Shown piece after piece: positions 3,472-62,117 of a stretch of DNA of 64,000 nt. Made by a program: the position numbers and the translations under genes. The stretch is from Sphingobacterium sp. GVS05A. Its GTDB lineage: Bacteria > Bacteroidota > Bacteroidia > Sphingobacteriales > Sphingobacteriaceae. The DNA lies in NCBI RefSeq assembly GCF_019969845.1, contig NZ_JAHXYR010000001.1:868001-932000 (forward strand). Direction: 5' to 3'. The notes beneath the pieces were generated by a model that was not told where the DNA came from, searched no databases, and saw only the letters and a list, made by a program, of their open reading frames with translations. Within the stretch, counting starts at the first letter, position 1. Every line of letters begins with the position of its first letter.

Positions 3472-3593
3472 CTGATTCGTGCCTGATTCGCCCCTAGAAG
3501 CAGGTCTGAGCATAGTGCGAACACTATCAGTCCGTGTTGAGTCCGTGTTTAACACGGACTCAACACGGACTGATGTCGGACTCAACACAGATT
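3472..3593. repeat. 11-bp phased repeats with long palindrome
   Basis: The word AGTCCGTGTT occurs at 3529 and 3540, and its reverse complement AACACGGACT at 3551 and 3562, each step exactly 11 bp. Together they form a near-perfect palindrome over 3526-3574 with a single-base centre. Two decayed units continue in phase at 3573 (7/10 matches) and 3584 (8/10). Another 11-bp-spaced pair, CTGATTCG, is at 3472 and 3483. A further lone AGTCCGTGTT lies at 3423, and a GACCAC/GTGGTC inverted pair at 3600 and 3638. The structure is too compact and symmetric for a CRISPR array. It may be a protein-binding site, a dispersed intergenic repeat or a structured RNA. The same 11-bp design recurs at 61552-61610. 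Confidence 0.85.
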
Positions 3594-3696
3594 CATGACG
3601 ACCACGATGCGACGCTGTGAAGGAGCAGGTAGCTACTGTGGTCAAACAGAAACCGAAGCATTGACGAAGCGTACATAGCTTTCGAATAGGACTATG

Positions 3697-56088: not shown

Positions 56089-58104
56089 ATGAAGAAAAAA
56101 ATGGATCAGAAACAGCAAATAGTTGAGCTGTTTGATCGCTATAAGAATCATTTGGATAATCCAGCGTTTGCAGAAATTGAGCTTTTGGTTTTAATTGTAG
56201 CTATTATTCGTCCAAAAAGAGTGCAATTATTTTATCAGGTCGATATACAGTTTTTTCTTGATTTTCTGAAAGAGTTACCCGATACAAGGCGTCAATTTGT
56301 CCAATATCTCAAACGTGTTCTTTGGCGAAGAGATTTTGATCAATTGGTATCCGATACAGGGATTATCAGTTATGCCGACTTTATTTATGAACTCAGGAAG
56401 CGAATAACGGAACGCTATCTGCCTTATCAACCGGCAAAGTCAACGTTACAGTATTTACTGAACCAAGTGTTTTACAATGTTAAAGACGCAGATTGGTTGT
56501 CAACGATTCCCGCTGAGCAATTGCATGAGCTTTTTCGACTATGTGAATTCGATTCGATATATGATAATGAAACGGGTTTTGAAATGATTGAAATCTTATA
56601 TGGCATAGAACTGTTGGTACAACGTATCACGGGCCGCGCCATGGAAACTGATGTCAATAAAATGGTACCTGAGTTTCAGAATTTTGATAGTCCATTTATC
56701 GCGATCATGCGGGAATTTAGCGAGTTAAATGATCGTATTTTACAATCGGAGAAAAAATATATTACGACTGAGGATCTTTCATACAAACAGCTATTGGTAC
56801 TTCACAAGCAATGCGAAACTTATATAGAAACAGCTTTTAGTAATTCACATCGTTTTGGTATTTCCATTAAAGTGAACCAGTCCTTATTGCGGATTCGGCA
56901 ACAACTGGAGCGCATCAAGGAGATGCTCTCTTTTTTGGTGATTGATAGCGAATTCCAAAAAGCAGAGAAAAGTATTCAATTGGCGAAGACGCTGATTGGA
57001 TATAATTCAAGAAAAAGCAATATTCGGAAATTAATAGGGCAGAGCACACAATTGCTGGCTTACGAAATTACACACCATACCGCCCAGACGGGTGAGCACT
57101 ATATTACGTCAACCCATCAGGAGTATTGGAAAATGTTTCGTTCTGCCTGCGGCGGTGGTGTAATTGTGGGGGCGATGTGTATTGTAAAACTATTGTTGGG
57201 AAAAGTGGAGACAAGCGAATTCGGGCATGCATTTTTGTATAGCTTGAATTATGCGATCGGTTTTACGGTCATCTATCTTTTTGGTGCTACCTTGGCAACA
57301 AAGCAGCCGGCGATGACAGCATCATCCCTTGTGAGCGCGATTGAACAGGGAACTTCGGACCAAGGTACTGACAGACACCGTTATTGGGTCTTTGCGCAAT
57401 TTTTCGCACGTTTATTTCGTTCGCAGTTTATCGCTTTCGTTGGTAATGTAATTATGGCATTCCCCATTAGTCTTTTGTTAGTTTGGGGAATAGAGCAGCT
57501 GTCGGGTGTAAATATAGCAAGCGCAAAATGGCTACATCTGGTCGATGATTTAAATCCGACGAAGACCCCCGTTATCTTGCACGCTTCCATTGCAGGTGTG
57601 TTTTTATTTCTGTCAGGTATTATCACTGGAAGTATTTCAAATCGAGATAAACATAATTCCGTTTACTACAGAATTCAGGAACATCCCTTGCTGAAAAGGA
57701 TATTTGGGAAAACGAAGACGGACAAGATAGCCTCTTTTTATGAGAAGAAATGGGCTGGTATTGTTTCCAATCTCTGGTTTGGTGTTTTTATGGGTTCAAC
57801 GGCCTCCATCGGGATGTTTCTTGGTCTGAGTTTGGATATTCGACATATCACTTTTGCAAGCGGGAATCTGGCCCTGGGCTTATTTGGGCATGGTATGGAG
57901 CTGTCCACGGATATCTGGATATGGGGAATTTTGGGTATCGGAATCATTGGGTTCTTTAATTTTCTGATAAGCTTTGGTTTGTCATTGGTCCTGGCGTTCC
58001 GTTCGAGAAACCTGTCCTCTAAGGAGTTGGCGAAAATGGCAAAGGCGGTATGGATTTATTTTAAGATGAATCCAAAATCATTCTTTTTTCCACCTAAAAA
58101 GTGA
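56089..58104 (+). CDS. PF10136 'site-specific recombinase' (Gcr-like) membrane protein
   Basis: A 671-residue protein. Residues 1 to about 350 are helical and soluble. Residues about 355-650 hold several hydrophobic segments (GGGVIVGAMCIVKLLLG, YAIGFTVIYLFGATLATKQPAMTASSLVSAIE, ITGSISNRDKHNS, WFGVFMGSTASIGMFLGLSLDIRHITFASGNLALG). This matches the PF10136 family, named after Neisseria Gcr. No tyrosine- or serine-recombinase catalytic motif is visible; a polytopic membrane protein is an unlikely recombinase. I would treat it as an inner-membrane protein of unknown role. YdcF follows 36 bases later. Confidence 0.85.
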   Translation: MKKKMDQKQQIVELFDRYKNHLDNPAFAEIELLVLIVAIIRPKRVQLFYQVDIQFFLDFLKELPDTRRQFVQYLKRVLWRRDFDQLVSDTGIISYADFIYELRKRITERYLPYQPAKSTLQYLLNQVFYNVKDADWLSTIPAEQLHELFRLCEFDSIYDNETGFEMIEILYGIELLVQRITGRAMETDVNKMVPEFQNFDSPFIAIMREFSELNDRILQSEKKYITTEDLSYKQLLVLHKQCETYIETAFSNSHRFGISIKVNQSLLRIRQQLERIKEMLSFLVIDSEFQKAEKSIQLAKTLIGYNSRKSNIRKLIGQSTQLLAYEITHHTAQTGEHYITSTHQEYWKMFRSACGGGVIVGAMCIVKLLLGKVETSEFGHAFLYSLNYAIGFTVIYLFGATLATKQPAMTASSLVSAIEQGTSDQGTDRHRYWVFAQFFARLFRSQFIAFVGNVIMAFPISLLLVWGIEQLSGVNIASAKWLHLVDDLNPTKTPVILHASIAGVFLFLSGIITGSISNRDKHNSVYYRIQEHPLLKRIFGKTKTDKIASFYEKKWAGIVSNLWFGVFMGSTASIGMFLGLSLDIRHITFASGNLALGLFGHGMELSTDIWIWGILGIGIIGFFNFLISFGLSLVLAFRSRNLSSKELAKMAKAVWIYFKMNPKSFFFPPKK

Positions 58105-58140
58105 GGAATAATTTCTATTCGTATCCGCTTATAGCAATGT

Positions 58141-58704
58141 ATGGTCCGGCACAACAAAGTTTTACCTGTTTTTTGGCAGGTAATGTCAGATTTTGTAGAT
58201 TATGGTATGAATAATATAATTTTAGTTCTTGGTGCGCCGAACGATGCACAGGGCAATTTATCTCAGATGGCGCAAGACAGGTTGAATTGTGCTCTCAATT
58301 TACACCTGGCCAATCCCGGTTTTAGAATCCTGTGCACTGGTGGTTTCGGAGCACATTTCAATACAACAGAAAGGCCACATTACTTCTATGCCTATCAATT
58401 CTTGATTGAGCGGGGAATACCCGAACAGGCCCTTGAAGAGGGGATACTTTCGACTAATACCATAACGGATTTTCAACTGGTTAAGGAACTGGTATTGCTA
58501 AAGAAACCCGATTTGTTAATCGTAATTACGTCAGATTTTCATATGGAAAGAGCTCAGATTTTGTACAGACGATATATTGGTTATTCTAAAGTTGTATTTA
58601 TTCCTGCTGTTTCATCTTTATCCGAAGAGGAGTTGGCCCCGCTTATAGCACATGAATCGCGGGCTGTAAAAATATTTAAGGAAACAGAGATTAATGCTCG
58701 TTGA
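58141..58704 (+). CDS. YdcF/SanA/ElyC family (DUF218) protein
   Basis: A 187-residue protein with the DUF218 core: IILVLGAPNDAQGNLSQMAQDRLNCAL, ILCTGGFGAHFNTTERPHYFYAYQFLIERGI and LLIVITSDFHMERAQILYRRYIG. The family is linked to envelope biogenesis; some members bind SAM. It lacks the N-terminal membrane anchor of SanA and ElyC. The start is uncertain: the ATG at 58141 gives 187 residues, but the core begins near the ATG at 58207. Confidence 0.85.
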   Translation: MVRHNKVLPVFWQVMSDFVDYGMNNIILVLGAPNDAQGNLSQMAQDRLNCALNLHLANPGFRILCTGGFGAHFNTTERPHYFYAYQFLIERGIPEQALEEGILSTNTITDFQLVKELVLLKKPDLLIVITSDFHMERAQILYRRYIGYSKVVFIPAVSSLSEEELAPLIAHESRAVKIFKETEINAR

Positions 58705-58814
58705 TTTTTTAATGTAAGTTCTCTATCGCTTTTGGTAACTTTACAAACGAAAATGTATTGAATGGCATATTAAAATGCTGTTTTCGATAAAAATTAGCAT
58801 TTCTAGATAAATAA

Positions 58815-59387
58815 ATGGAAAATCTATTACTTTTCATACGTTCATTAACGGATTTTTCTGATGAAGCCTGGATATATTTGCAACCCGCCCTTCGTTTGCA
58901 AGAATACCGGAAAAATGAGGTTTTGCTAAAAGAAGGCGATATATGTGATAAGCTCTTTTATATTGAAAAGGGCTATTGCAAAAGCTACTGCATGATAGAG
59001 GCTGAGAAAAAGAATATCGGATTTTTCTTTGAAGATGAAATCGCAACGGACATCCAGAGTTTTGGATGTGGTCATCCTTCCGCCCTTAATATTGTAGCCT
59101 GTGAACCGTTGGCAGTAGTCATCTTTGATAAGAAAAAGTTGTTTGAAGCTTCAAGCCAGCACATAGAGATTGAAAGATTGGGGAGAAACTGTATCCGCCA
59201 GTTTGCATCAAAGCAGGCGGAATTCGCAAATATGGCCAAACTCTATAAACCTCAAGAGAGGTTGGACTTTCTGGAAAGTCAGTTTCCGGAAATGGGGCAA
59301 CGTGTTCCGCTCACACAGCTAGCCTCTTTTCTTGGAGTGGCTCGGGAAACATTGAGCCGAATTAGAAGAAGAAGGACACATTATTAA
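58815..59387 (+). CDS. Crp/Fnr family transcriptional regulator
   Basis: A 190-residue regulator: cyclic-nucleotide-binding-like beta-roll (residues about 20-110, with EVLLKEGDICDKLFYIEKGYCKSY) and a C-terminal winged helix (VPLTQLASFLGVARETLSRIRRRR). The recognition helix R-E-x-x-x-R is as in E. coli CRP, whose site is TGTGA-N6-TCACA. The cAMP-binding residues of CRP (RxSA-type phosphate cassette) are not evident, as is common in Bacteroidota, so the effector may differ. A perfect CRP-type palindrome lies 3 bases after the stop codon. Confidence 0.93.
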   Translation: MENLLLFIRSLTDFSDEAWIYLQPALRLQEYRKNEVLLKEGDICDKLFYIEKGYCKSYCMIEAEKKNIGFFFEDEIATDIQSFGCGHPSALNIVACEPLAVVIFDKKKLFEASSQHIEIERLGRNCIRQFASKQAEFANMAKLYKPQERLDFLESQFPEMGQRVPLTQLASFLGVARETLSRIRRRRTHY

Positions 59388-59390
59388 TTA

Positions 59391-59406
59391 TGTGACGATC
59401 GTCACA
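59391..59406. promoter_or_regulatory. CRP-type operator palindrome
   Basis: TGTGACGATCGTCACA is a perfect 16-bp palindrome of the form TGTGA-N6-TCACA. It is between the Crp/Fnr gene and the VOC gene, 46 bases before the VOC start, so it could control the VOC gene. It lacks the U-run of a terminator. Confidence 0.6.
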
Positions 59407-59452
59407 GGCTAAAATCTTATTTTTTCCTGAGTTTTGAAAAAAATAAGAAGTC

Positions 59453-59869
59453 ATGCAAAAATTAAAGAAAATCGATGCGCATACCAATGTGCTAACTTGG
59501 TTCGAAATCCCTGTCCTCAATACCCTAAGGGCAAAAAGCTTTTATGAAGAAATCCTAGACCTAAAGATGACTATAAGGTCTTTTCCGGATTCCGAAGAAG
59601 AACTTACATTCTTTCCTTATGATCCTAATGTTATACAGGCAACGTCTGGCCGAATTACGGGAGTTCTGACCAAATCACCTAATAAAAAACCGTCACGATC
59701 TGGAGTCCTTATTTATATAAATGCTTATCCCGAAATCCAGCTTGTTCTTGATAGAGTGATAGCAGCAGGTGGTAAAATAATCCTTAGTAAAACTTTGATT
59801 CCCGCAGGTTATATTGCCGTTATCGAGGACACAGAAGGAAATCATATCGGGCTTAGTTCCGAAAAATAA
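59453..59869 (+). CDS. VOC (glyoxalase/bleomycin-resistance) superfamily protein
   Basis: A 138-residue protein with two beta-alpha-beta-beta-beta units: LTWFEIPVLNTLRAKSFYEEILDLKMT, GVLIYINAYPEIQLVLDRVIAAGGKI and AVIEDTEGNHIGLSS. VOC proteins bind a metal and act on small molecules; no specific role can be assigned. It is directly downstream of the CRP-type palindrome. Confidence 0.88.
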   Translation: MQKLKKIDAHTNVLTWFEIPVLNTLRAKSFYEEILDLKMTIRSFPDSEEELTFFPYDPNVIQATSGRITGVLTKSPNKKPSRSGVLIYINAYPEIQLVLDRVIAAGGKIILSKTLIPAGYIAVIEDTEGNHIGLSSEK

Positions 59870-59928
59870 CCTTTATATTTATCTGTTCCTATAGAATCAG
59901 TGTAATTGGCTTACTCAGAAAAATAAAA

Positions 59929-60684
59929 ATGATCGAAGAAATAGCTTACCGGCCAAAATATCCACTCAGCGGATTTATAGATTATATCTGGGTAGGAAAG
60001 TCGCCTGATCTTACCATGGATTTTGTTCATCATGCTGCTTTGTTTACCGAACTTATTTTCAGTTATGGCGATGAGTACGACATCAGAGGAATCAATACCG
60101 AAAAGATAGACGGTCGTATAGGACTTCAGGTGCTATCGGGTTTAAAAAATCGACCTTTTCTGACCAGAACAAATGGAGCTTACGCGTGCATAGGGTTAAT
60201 TTTAAAGCCGTTTTGCTATGGAATACTGCTCCCCAAATTAGGGAGCTCATCTTTGGAAGAAGTAGCTTCGATTTTATTTGACTGTCTTTTTGCTGTCGAG
60301 AATCCTGATTTTGTCCAAGCCGAAAAATGTTTGTTGAGGGTATTCGAAACAGTAAATACCGACCCTCACTTGATGAGGTTCGAAGCACATCTGGCTGCTG
60401 AAATAGCAGGAAAGGGAATGCTGAGGGATTTCAGTAAACTGCTGCCGATTTCGCAGAAAAGTTTCATTCAGAAATTCAGAAAGCATTATTTTTTGACTCC
60501 CAGTGAATATCTGAATCTTTACAAAGTCAATAAAGCGATCCTATTGCTTCAAAACAATTCGCCGGAACGATTGACTGACATTGGGTTGAATGCTGGATTC
60601 TATGATCAGTCTCATTTTATTAGGGTATTTAAAAAATTCAGTGGTTATACTCCAAAAGAATTTTCAAAATTTGGAGCAGGGTAA
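59929..60684 (+). CDS. AraC-family regulator with DUF6597-like N-terminus
   Basis: A 251-residue regulator. Residues about 1-100 (YPLSGFIDYIWVG, FTELIFSYGDEYDI, YACIGLILKPFCYGILL) look like the DUF6597 beta-barrel sensor; residues about 150-250 are the HTH_18 double helix-turn-helix (LTDIGLNAGFYDQSHFIRVFKKFSGYTPKEF). Target unknown; the following DHFR-family gene is a candidate. Confidence 0.9.
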   Translation: MIEEIAYRPKYPLSGFIDYIWVGKSPDLTMDFVHHAALFTELIFSYGDEYDIRGINTEKIDGRIGLQVLSGLKNRPFLTRTNGAYACIGLILKPFCYGILLPKLGSSSLEEVASILFDCLFAVENPDFVQAEKCLLRVFETVNTDPHLMRFEAHLAAEIAGKGMLRDFSKLLPISQKSFIQKFRKHYFLTPSEYLNLYKVNKAILLLQNNSPERLTDIGLNAGFYDQSHFIRVFKKFSGYTPKEFSKFGAG

Positions 60685-60716
60685 ATTCTGTACAATTTTA
60701 AATGTGTCGAAGGATT

Positions 60717-60724
60717 TAATTTTG
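60717..60724 (+). promoter_or_regulatory. -7 element of the DHFR-family gene
   Basis: TAATTTTG, 24 bases before the ATG at 60749. It shows that the gene starts there, not at the longer frame inside the AraC gene. Confidence 0.55.
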
Positions 60725-60748
60725 TGGTATAACTTTAAATACATAAAA

Positions 60749-61285
60749 ATGAATCAGAAAAACAAAGTCTTCATTGCTACCAGTCTGGACGGATATATTG
60801 CCGATAGGAACGGAGAAATCGATTGGCTGCTTTCCATACCGAATCCCGAAAAGGATGATATGGGCTATAAGAAATTTATTGCACAGATTGATGCGCTGGT
60901 CATGGGCCGCAAAACCTTTGAAGTGGTTTGTGGTTTTGACGAATGGTATTATGATAAGCATGTTTTTGTGTTAAGCGACAGTATGACGGAGATCCCTGCA
61001 AAATTCAGGGATAAAGCTTCTCTTGTCAAAGGCTGCCTAAACGATGTACTGGGTGAAATTCATGGAAAAGGATATCATAACCTGTATATCGATGGGGGAA
61101 AGACTATTCAGGGCTTTTTGCAAGAAGACCGGATTGATGAGATCATTATCACGCTGATTCCTTATCTGCTGGGGGAAGGGATTCCTTTGTTCGGATATCT
61201 TTCCGAAATGTTGAAGTTTGAAGCTGTGGGTACAAAAATCTTTCTAAATTCAATCGTTCAAAATCATTTTGTAAGAAAAAGATAA
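60749..61285 (+). CDS. Dihydrofolate reductase family (RibD-C/YyaP) protein
   Basis: A 178-residue protein with the DHFR-like fold: VFIATSLDGYIADRNGEIDWLLS, DALVMGRKTFEVVCGFDEWYYDKHVFVLSD, NLYIDGGKTIQGFLQEDRIDEIIITLIPYLLGEGIPLFG. It matches RibD C-terminal domain/YyaP proteins, NADPH-dependent reductases of unclear substrate. The frame is open upstream to 60590, but the ATG at 60749 has the promoter and fits the family start. Confidence 0.92.
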   Translation: MNQKNKVFIATSLDGYIADRNGEIDWLLSIPNPEKDDMGYKKFIAQIDALVMGRKTFEVVCGFDEWYYDKHVFVLSDSMTEIPAKFRDKASLVKGCLNDVLGEIHGKGYHNLYIDGGKTIQGFLQEDRIDEIIITLIPYLLGEGIPLFGYLSEMLKFEAVGTKIFLNSIVQNHFVRKR

Positions 61286-61551
61286 ATGGAACCAACATCT
61301 GAAAGGAATAGGCTGTTGCGGCAGGCAAACGATGTATAATCCTCGAAACGGATGGATTAGAGACTTTAAGTTATTAACATAGCCAAGATTTAAACAGATC
61401 TTGCCTCAAAGATCCGAGATTTCTCTTTTCTTCCTAGCTTTGTTTTGATTTTTTGGATAGTTATTGCCATATCCTTTCAGTTTGTCCGCAGATCATTTAA
61501 CGCTTGTTCACTACTCGCTCATACCATATTCGCAATTACTGCTGTATTCCG

Positions 61552-61610
61552 CTACTTATCCTCCACTAATTCCCTACTAAAAGAGTAGAAAAGGAGTAGG
61601 TAATAAGTAG
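61552..61610. repeat. 11-bp phased inverted repeat, CTACT/AGTAG
   Basis: CTACT, CCACT and CTACT start at 61552, 61563 and 61574; AGTAG starts at 61584, 61595 and 61606. All steps are exactly 11 bp, and the two halves are symmetric about 61581. The 6-base spacers between words are not complementary across the axis (2-3 of 6 match), so the conserved parts are the pentamers and not a hairpin stem. This resembles a multi-site protein operator on one face of the helix. It shares the period with the region at 3529-3593. Confidence 0.85.
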
Positions 61611-61992
61611 AGAAACAGTTGATAAATGCCGAATCAGATATGGATAGGGTACGAAGTGGTATTGAATCAACATCGCGACAATATCGAGTTAACCGGGTGT
61701 AGGACACTTTTTGGGCACTAAAGGACAGCTTTGGCTCTTCTTTGCGCATCGCAAGAACAAACGCGGATCAGTCGAACAAACTATTTAGGTAAGTTAGATC
61801 TGGTCTAAAAACTATATGATATGGACGATACCTCGTGTCGGTCATATCATTGTATATTAGGTGTTTAATCTCGTATAGAAAGAAGGGAATTAATGTTAAA
61901 TAGAATGAAAATAATATCGAAACTACTTTCATCCTGACATTATTTTGAGATGGGATCTTTATAAGATCAGACAAGCGAAAATTAAAAAACAA

Positions 61993-62027: not shown

Positions 62028-62117
62028 TGGCGGAAGAGGCGGGATTCGAACCCGCGGTACCGTTTCCAGTACGACAGTTTAGCAAACTGTTCCTTTCGGC
62101 CACTCAGGCACCCTTCC
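62028..62117 (-). tRNA. tRNA-Ser(GCT)
   Basis: A 90-base class II tRNA with CCA encoded (TGG on the plus strand at 62028-62030) and discriminator G. The acceptor stem is GGAAGGG/CTCTTCC. The anticodon GCT (plus-strand AGC at 62081-62083) reads AGC/AGU serine codons. A long variable arm and the T loop GGTTCGAATCC are present. Confidence 0.95.

Follow-up and report, generated by a model that had tools for sequence, protein, structure and literature searches.

Arrays of short DNA words at an exact 11-bp period, typically in the leaders of DUF6266 operons of Sphingobacterium and related bacteria

Results

The window, by which we mean the whole 64,000-nt stretch of DNA analysed, contains a variable island of about 3.9 kb (58105..61986, no strand assigned) that runs from a PF10136 gene to the tRNA-Ser (GCT) gene forming its border (62028..62117, minus strand). 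Glyoxalase-like, AraC-type and RibD_C-type genes are present in this island. It also contains the array CTACT-N6-CCACT-N6-CTACT-N5-AGTAG-N6-AGTAG-N6-AGTAG (61552..61610, likewise unstranded), which on inspection of the sequence consists of a left half with words CTACT (61552-61556), CCACT (61563-61567) and CTACT (61574-61578), and a right half with AGTAG at 61584-61588, 61595-61599 and 61606-61610. The steps are exactly 11 bp and the words mirror-symmetric about a dyad centre at 61581, as the first-pass annotation had described; the six 5-bp words carry a single mismatch in 30 word bases.

Searching for three words together with three mirrored ones at a constant step, we recovered this array as the only site in the whole window at step 11, no match in the window at steps 9, 10, 12, 13 or 14, and no match in 60 Markov-1 resampled windows. 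Genome-wide counts are based on 864 kb of the source genome, taken as stretches; there the same search gave two matches at step 11, the window array and a site at L069:10304, and none at other steps. Phase analysis singled out just two period-11 sites in the window, near 3514 (z 9.4) and 61537 (z 6.1). The best period-11 stretch at the array spans 61537..61624 (unstranded, 8 units, z 6.1), and the other site is a second array with GTCCGTGTT/AACACGGAC words (3503..3601, unstranded), referred to below as the 3526 array. These z-scores are approximate, each being the best of many positions, with other-period and downstream controls as the yardstick; downstream control values rose as high as 6.2-6.7 at L081 and L084.

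Between the words, 9 of 22 spacer positions in the window array are complementary against 7.2 expected (p=0.24), and predicted folds, in which the spacers pair partly, reach -29.4 kcal/mol on the minus strand (z -4.4) and -22.3 kcal/mol on the plus strand (z -2.9). The earlier view that only the pentamers are symmetric is slightly too strong, although spacer complementarity is non-significant in this copy. The 3526 array, like some other members of the class described below, is palindromic through its spacers. Pooling 24 arrays gave 251 of 548 symmetric spacer positions against 159 expected, a figure inflated by the selection of centre and phase by fit.

The window array is a relic, comprising the leader and a C-terminal DUF6266 fragment of an operon that is broken here. 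Searching 93 genomes of the genus, we found the region matched, in split form, in four relatives, two parts of the window matching at 70-80% identity. Positions 61412..61678 (plus strand) are homologous, at 75-80% identity, to DNA upstream of DUF6266 operons in S. detergens, S. athyrii, S. puteale and genome G073, and 61701..61923 (plus strand) match the end of the first DUF6266 gene and the next junction. In the relatives these two parts lie approximately 760 bp apart, a stretch that the window lacks, and between and around them is a DUF6266 gene (PF19781, 8e-40). The truncated gene is still legible in frame at 61705..61770 (plus strand), encoding DUF6266 residues 182-203 with 86% identity to S. 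detergens, so that the window copy shares with DUF6266-operon leaders both the homologous upstream DNA and DUF6266 coding sequence. The intact arrangement is found in S. detergens, S. athyrii and S. puteale, among others. Synteny around tRNA-Ser(GCT) indicates that S. athyrii (L218) lacks the island, the equivalent of window position 58100 being joined almost directly to 61992, and in S. detergens (L216) the island is mostly without a match. Conservation of the element at this locus in close relatives was accordingly not observed; the island is missing there and the element is carried elsewhere. With only this remnant of the operon left, the window has no winged-HTH gene of the kind described below near the array.

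Arrays of this kind constitute a real, conserved, widespread and apparently undescribed class of bacterial DNA element; the literature we searched neither mentions DUF6266 nor describes such arrays. The first-pass annotation, which had proposed a family of intergenic elements sharing the 11-bp period with variable words, needs amending in that such an element usually forms the leader of a DUF6266 operon. Within the genus Sphingobacterium a period-11 array at z of at least 5 lies upstream of DUF6266 in 33 of 35 loci, and across 79 named loci (Sphingobacterium, Olivibacter, Parapedobacter, Pedobacter, Desertivirga, a Flavobacteriaceae and a Bacteroidales genome) one is present at z of at least 6 in 43. 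Other periods account for 0-2 loci each over 7-21 and 23 in the same set, and period 22, a harmonic of 11, for 26 loci. Each locus group uses one word (TTCGA, TTCGG, TTACC, CTTAC, CCTAG, TACCG, CCGAT, ATCGT, CAGT, TAGGT or GGTGC, with CTACT the word of the window array's group), and a mid-array switch to the reverse-complement word is common. Clean arrays are carried, for example, by S. detergens L106 (CTACT), S. faecale L136 (CTTAC) and Pedobacter L168 (TTACC). Non-ORF DNA in the 864 kb of the source genome holds 8 period-11 arrays at z of at least 5, compared with at most 3 at each other period between 8 and 17, none of which reaches z 6. Both the proposed family, seen across the genus and in other genera, and the further members anticipated in this genome (L031-L036, L041, L050, L057, L060, L064, L069) were found, and the suspected kinship of the two window arrays is borne out to the extent that the 3526 array falls in the same broad class.

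Tandem repeats of other periods also occur upstream of DUF6266, at 7 or 14 bp in L096/L117 (z 15-22) and at 12 bp in L170 (z 21.7). Separately, three loci (L128, L149, L106) contain a promoter-proximal mini-array with an 11-bp CGGACA-N5 repeat approximately 110-240 bp upstream of DUF6266; it is common to loci with differing main words and may represent a common operator.

Comparison of orthologous arrays reveals that the words outlast the spacers. Word and spacer conservation was 0.96/0.67, 0.97/0.70, 0.90/0.64 and 0.71/0.50 in four orthologue groups, 0.79/0.64 at the 3526 locus and 0.94/0.67 for the CGGACA mini-array (all p at most 0.01), with a two-sequence group at 0.83 versus 0.70 (p=0.06). 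The window array itself gave 0.97 versus 0.90 (p=0.07), a weak contrast because its orthologues are close.

The recurrent gene order is a LytTR gene, a small HTH_17/MerR-like gene, the array, DUF6266 (often twice) and downstream genes for a protein of CHAP endolysin-like or DUF5675 type, a small membrane protein and a lipoprotein that has a membrane segment. LytTR genes, encoding a response regulator or a membrane LytTR protein, are upstream in 37 of 80 DUF6266 loci, and a BldC/excisionase-like winged-HTH gene (HTH_17/MerR_1 in Pfam) is found immediately upstream in 52 of the 80. The predicted structure of the latter product (pLDDT 82) is a winged HTH with an extra N-terminal helix that resembles RacA, BldC-smeA-ssfA and excisionases; Foldseek E-values are weak (0.035 and above) and the ranking agrees. 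That of DUF6266 (pLDDT 87) has a flexible N-terminus and a C-terminal fibronectin type III-like domain (Z 10.9, rmsd 2.3, 93 residues). DUF6266 was set aside as the DNA binder, the matches to its model including no DNA-binding fold in a comparison that barely tests the N-terminal part. A phage or plasmid origin was likewise dropped, as searches of viral contigs, plasmids and phages turned up no DUF6266 relatives at the sensitivities applied.

Among 30 loci of winged-HTH homologues in six genomes, nearly all of those near DUF6266 have an array (z 5.4-13.7), the two exceptions scoring 3.3-3.4, and those without DUF6266 nearby have none (maximum z 4.6). Within DUF6266 loci the presence of the HTH gene was rejected as a predictor of arrays, array strength being independent of an HTH gene within 2.5 kb.

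Some arrays are solo, that is, without a DUF6266 gene, and same-word solo arrays occur elsewhere in the source genome. Solo L050 is 81% identical to leaders L034/L035 across 201 bp, solo L060 is 92% identical to leader L033 across 39 bp, and solo L069 has 73-78% identity to the CTACT leaders of relatives. The last belongs to a dispersed intergenic repeat of 300-400 bp (L069:10240-10680) with two 11-bp arrays of CCTAC and CTACT words, a family present in six genomes, with multiple copies at different loci in G073, G007 and G048; alignment of copies with their flanks revealed no common sharp ends. The 3526 array is a solo array of another dispersed family (GTCCGTGTT), found in 18 of the 93 genomes of the genus and retained between lgt and a PALP-family gene in 8 species.

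Discussion

Several characterized systems resemble these arrays in part. Apl of phage 186, a small excisionase-type protein of the recombination directionality factor (RDF) family that doubles as a transcription regulator, reads 6-bp operators in direct repeats 10-11 bp apart, binding 5 and 7 copies cooperatively with one monomer per turn and bending the DNA (PMC7498355). It shares with our arrays the short direct-repeat words one turn apart; by contrast, the arrays here have up to ~16 units per direction at a strict 11 bp with a mid-array flip, and as candidate operators they use a separate word for each paralogous operon, with no integrase or att site seen and no integrase among the recurrent neighbours of DUF6266 loci. 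BldC of Streptomyces (smeA-ssfA), a MerR-like winged-HTH protein, binds as a head-to-tail filament on direct repeats of variable number, protecting 5-bp tracts one turn apart (PMC5859096). The likeness extends to the MerR-like winged-HTH gene encoded nearby here, although BldC reads few, poorly conserved AT-rich repeats with one global specificity, as opposed to long arrays with locus-specific words and a putative reader. RdfS of ICEMlSym(R7A), whose HTH_17 fold carries an additional helix at the N-terminus, assembles into superhelical filaments (PMC11963761); our HTH model has such a helix, and RdfS has no apparent consensus motif, unlike the strict words here. ParR/parC plasmid centromeres likewise have iterons, of 11 bp in the case of plasmid R1, in front of an operon and fall into mutually exclusive specificity families (PMC9426499), whereas the present arrays are chromosomal and dyad-arranged, and ParM/ParR are not among the recurrent neighbours. 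Given direct-repeat words one turn apart with a winged-HTH (HTH_17/MerR-like) gene nearby (52/80 loci), the class most likely works in the manner of RDF/BldC operators, of which we regard it, by analogy, as a putative member.

Our leading interpretation, to which we assign a probability of roughly 0.55, is that the arrays are operators in DUF6266 leaders for a filament-forming protein that reads one word per turn, the likeliest reader being the winged-HTH protein of MerR/BldC/excisionase-like type encoded upstream, which would act in the manner of Apl or BldC. In its favour stand the exact 11-bp period ahead of DUF6266 genes, with other periods near zero, the restriction of arrays to those winged-HTH loci that have DUF6266 nearby, the conservation of words over spacers and the lack of RNA covariation. 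We propose this reader since the array geometry is what Apl/BldC-type proteins need and the encoded protein is predicted to have that fold. One short word per helical turn would be occupied by protein polymerizing head-to-tail along the DNA, and the dyad would be the head-on meeting point of two such chains. An array in the leader could in this way control the DUF6266 genes and the endolysin-like enzyme, small membrane protein and lipoprotein encoded downstream. A relaxed turn of B-DNA is about 10.5 bp. The idea that the words lie on one helix face consequently holds only locally, because an 11.0-bp pitch produces a steady drift of ~17 degrees from unit to unit, in keeping with a filament that winds about the double helix. 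Possession of its own word by each operon group may keep paralogous operons apart, and same-word solo arrays elsewhere would be extra targets or relics. Several observations count against this interpretation: some arrays are palindromic through their spacers, solo arrays have no adjacent reader gene, array strength is independent of a nearby HTH gene, the word/spacer contrast in the window array is weak, as are the Foldseek E-values for the HTH model, and word similarity does not follow winged-HTH similarity. On the last point a partial r that at first stood at 0.34 disappeared on dereplication, and with close relatives removed it was about 0 (p 0.4-0.6), so that covariation of word and protein was abandoned as a means of identifying the reader.

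The arrays might instead act as RNA, each folding into an extended hairpin, within a leader or a small transcript, that is bound by an RNA-binding protein or controls transcription, 11 bp corresponding to a full turn in A-form geometry. The window copy folds stably on either strand, and the spacers pair in some arrays, including L221, which is consistent with this, yet in 10 related CTACT arrays covariation of word and spacer stem pairs alike was no higher than in shuffles, Rfam gave no match above gathering score, and the mostly unidirectional arrays of L182, L168 and L032 make a full-length hairpin impossible. The absent covariation, together with the drift of spacers under persistent words between orthologues, led us to drop a simple RNA hairpin and to favour a protein reading duplex DNA once per turn over an RNA stem, and we consider a role as RNA very improbable. 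The cooperative DNA-binding protein suggested by the first-pass annotation is, for the same reasons, the best putative reading of these arrays. Word conservation over spacers also argues against their belonging to a repeat of the non-autonomous mobile or REP-like kind, with a period arising from transposase binding or repeat expansion and no regulatory role. The multi-copy dispersal of the L069 and 3526 families and a window copy that is moved or solitary would fit such an origin, which we nevertheless judge improbable in light of the DUF6266-leader association across genera, the constant intergenic site of the 3526 family in 8 species, the lack of clear common ends among aligned copies, and the fact that no linked transposase was seen.

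A different reader for the same operators, either a LytTR protein, of the response-regulator or the membrane-bound kind, or some unlinked protein, is a somewhat unlikely alternative to the winged-HTH protein. LytTR genes accompany 37 of the 80 loci, the 11-bp CGGACA-N5 mini-array is conserved, some LytTR regulators bind direct repeats (PMC5859096), and solo arrays need a reader that acts in trans. Word-LytTR covariation is likewise absent (partial 0.03-0.09, p 0.17-0.38). Usual LytTR sites are paired, unlike long arrays of locus-specific words, which counts against this reader. More speculatively, and with some doubt on our part, the arrays of Sphingobacteriaceae and relatives could make up a filament code of private words, in which paralogous winged-HTH (or LytTR) proteins, each polymerizing on long 11-bp arrays of its own word, insulate several DUF6266/lysis-type operons from one another and tie each to its solo arrays at other places in the chromosome.

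If these are filament operators, they would amount to dozens of naturally occurring cognate operator sets that share one geometry and differ in their words, ideally suited to asking how a chain-forming protein reads DNA sequence, and a test bed for the exact 11.0-bp pitch and the meeting point of opposed chains. Uncharacterised DUF6266 operons, with their fibronectin type III-like, endolysin-like, membrane and lipoprotein products, would be placed under a defined switch. In one example (L027:1582-5108, minus strand), a LytTR regulator, a CHAP endolysin-like enzyme, a small membrane protein and a lipoprotein give the DUF6266 operon the look of a lysis or export module. The winged-HTH gene upstream of DUF6266 at this locus in G073 (~4866) is broken by an in-frame stop, and the array there is conserved.
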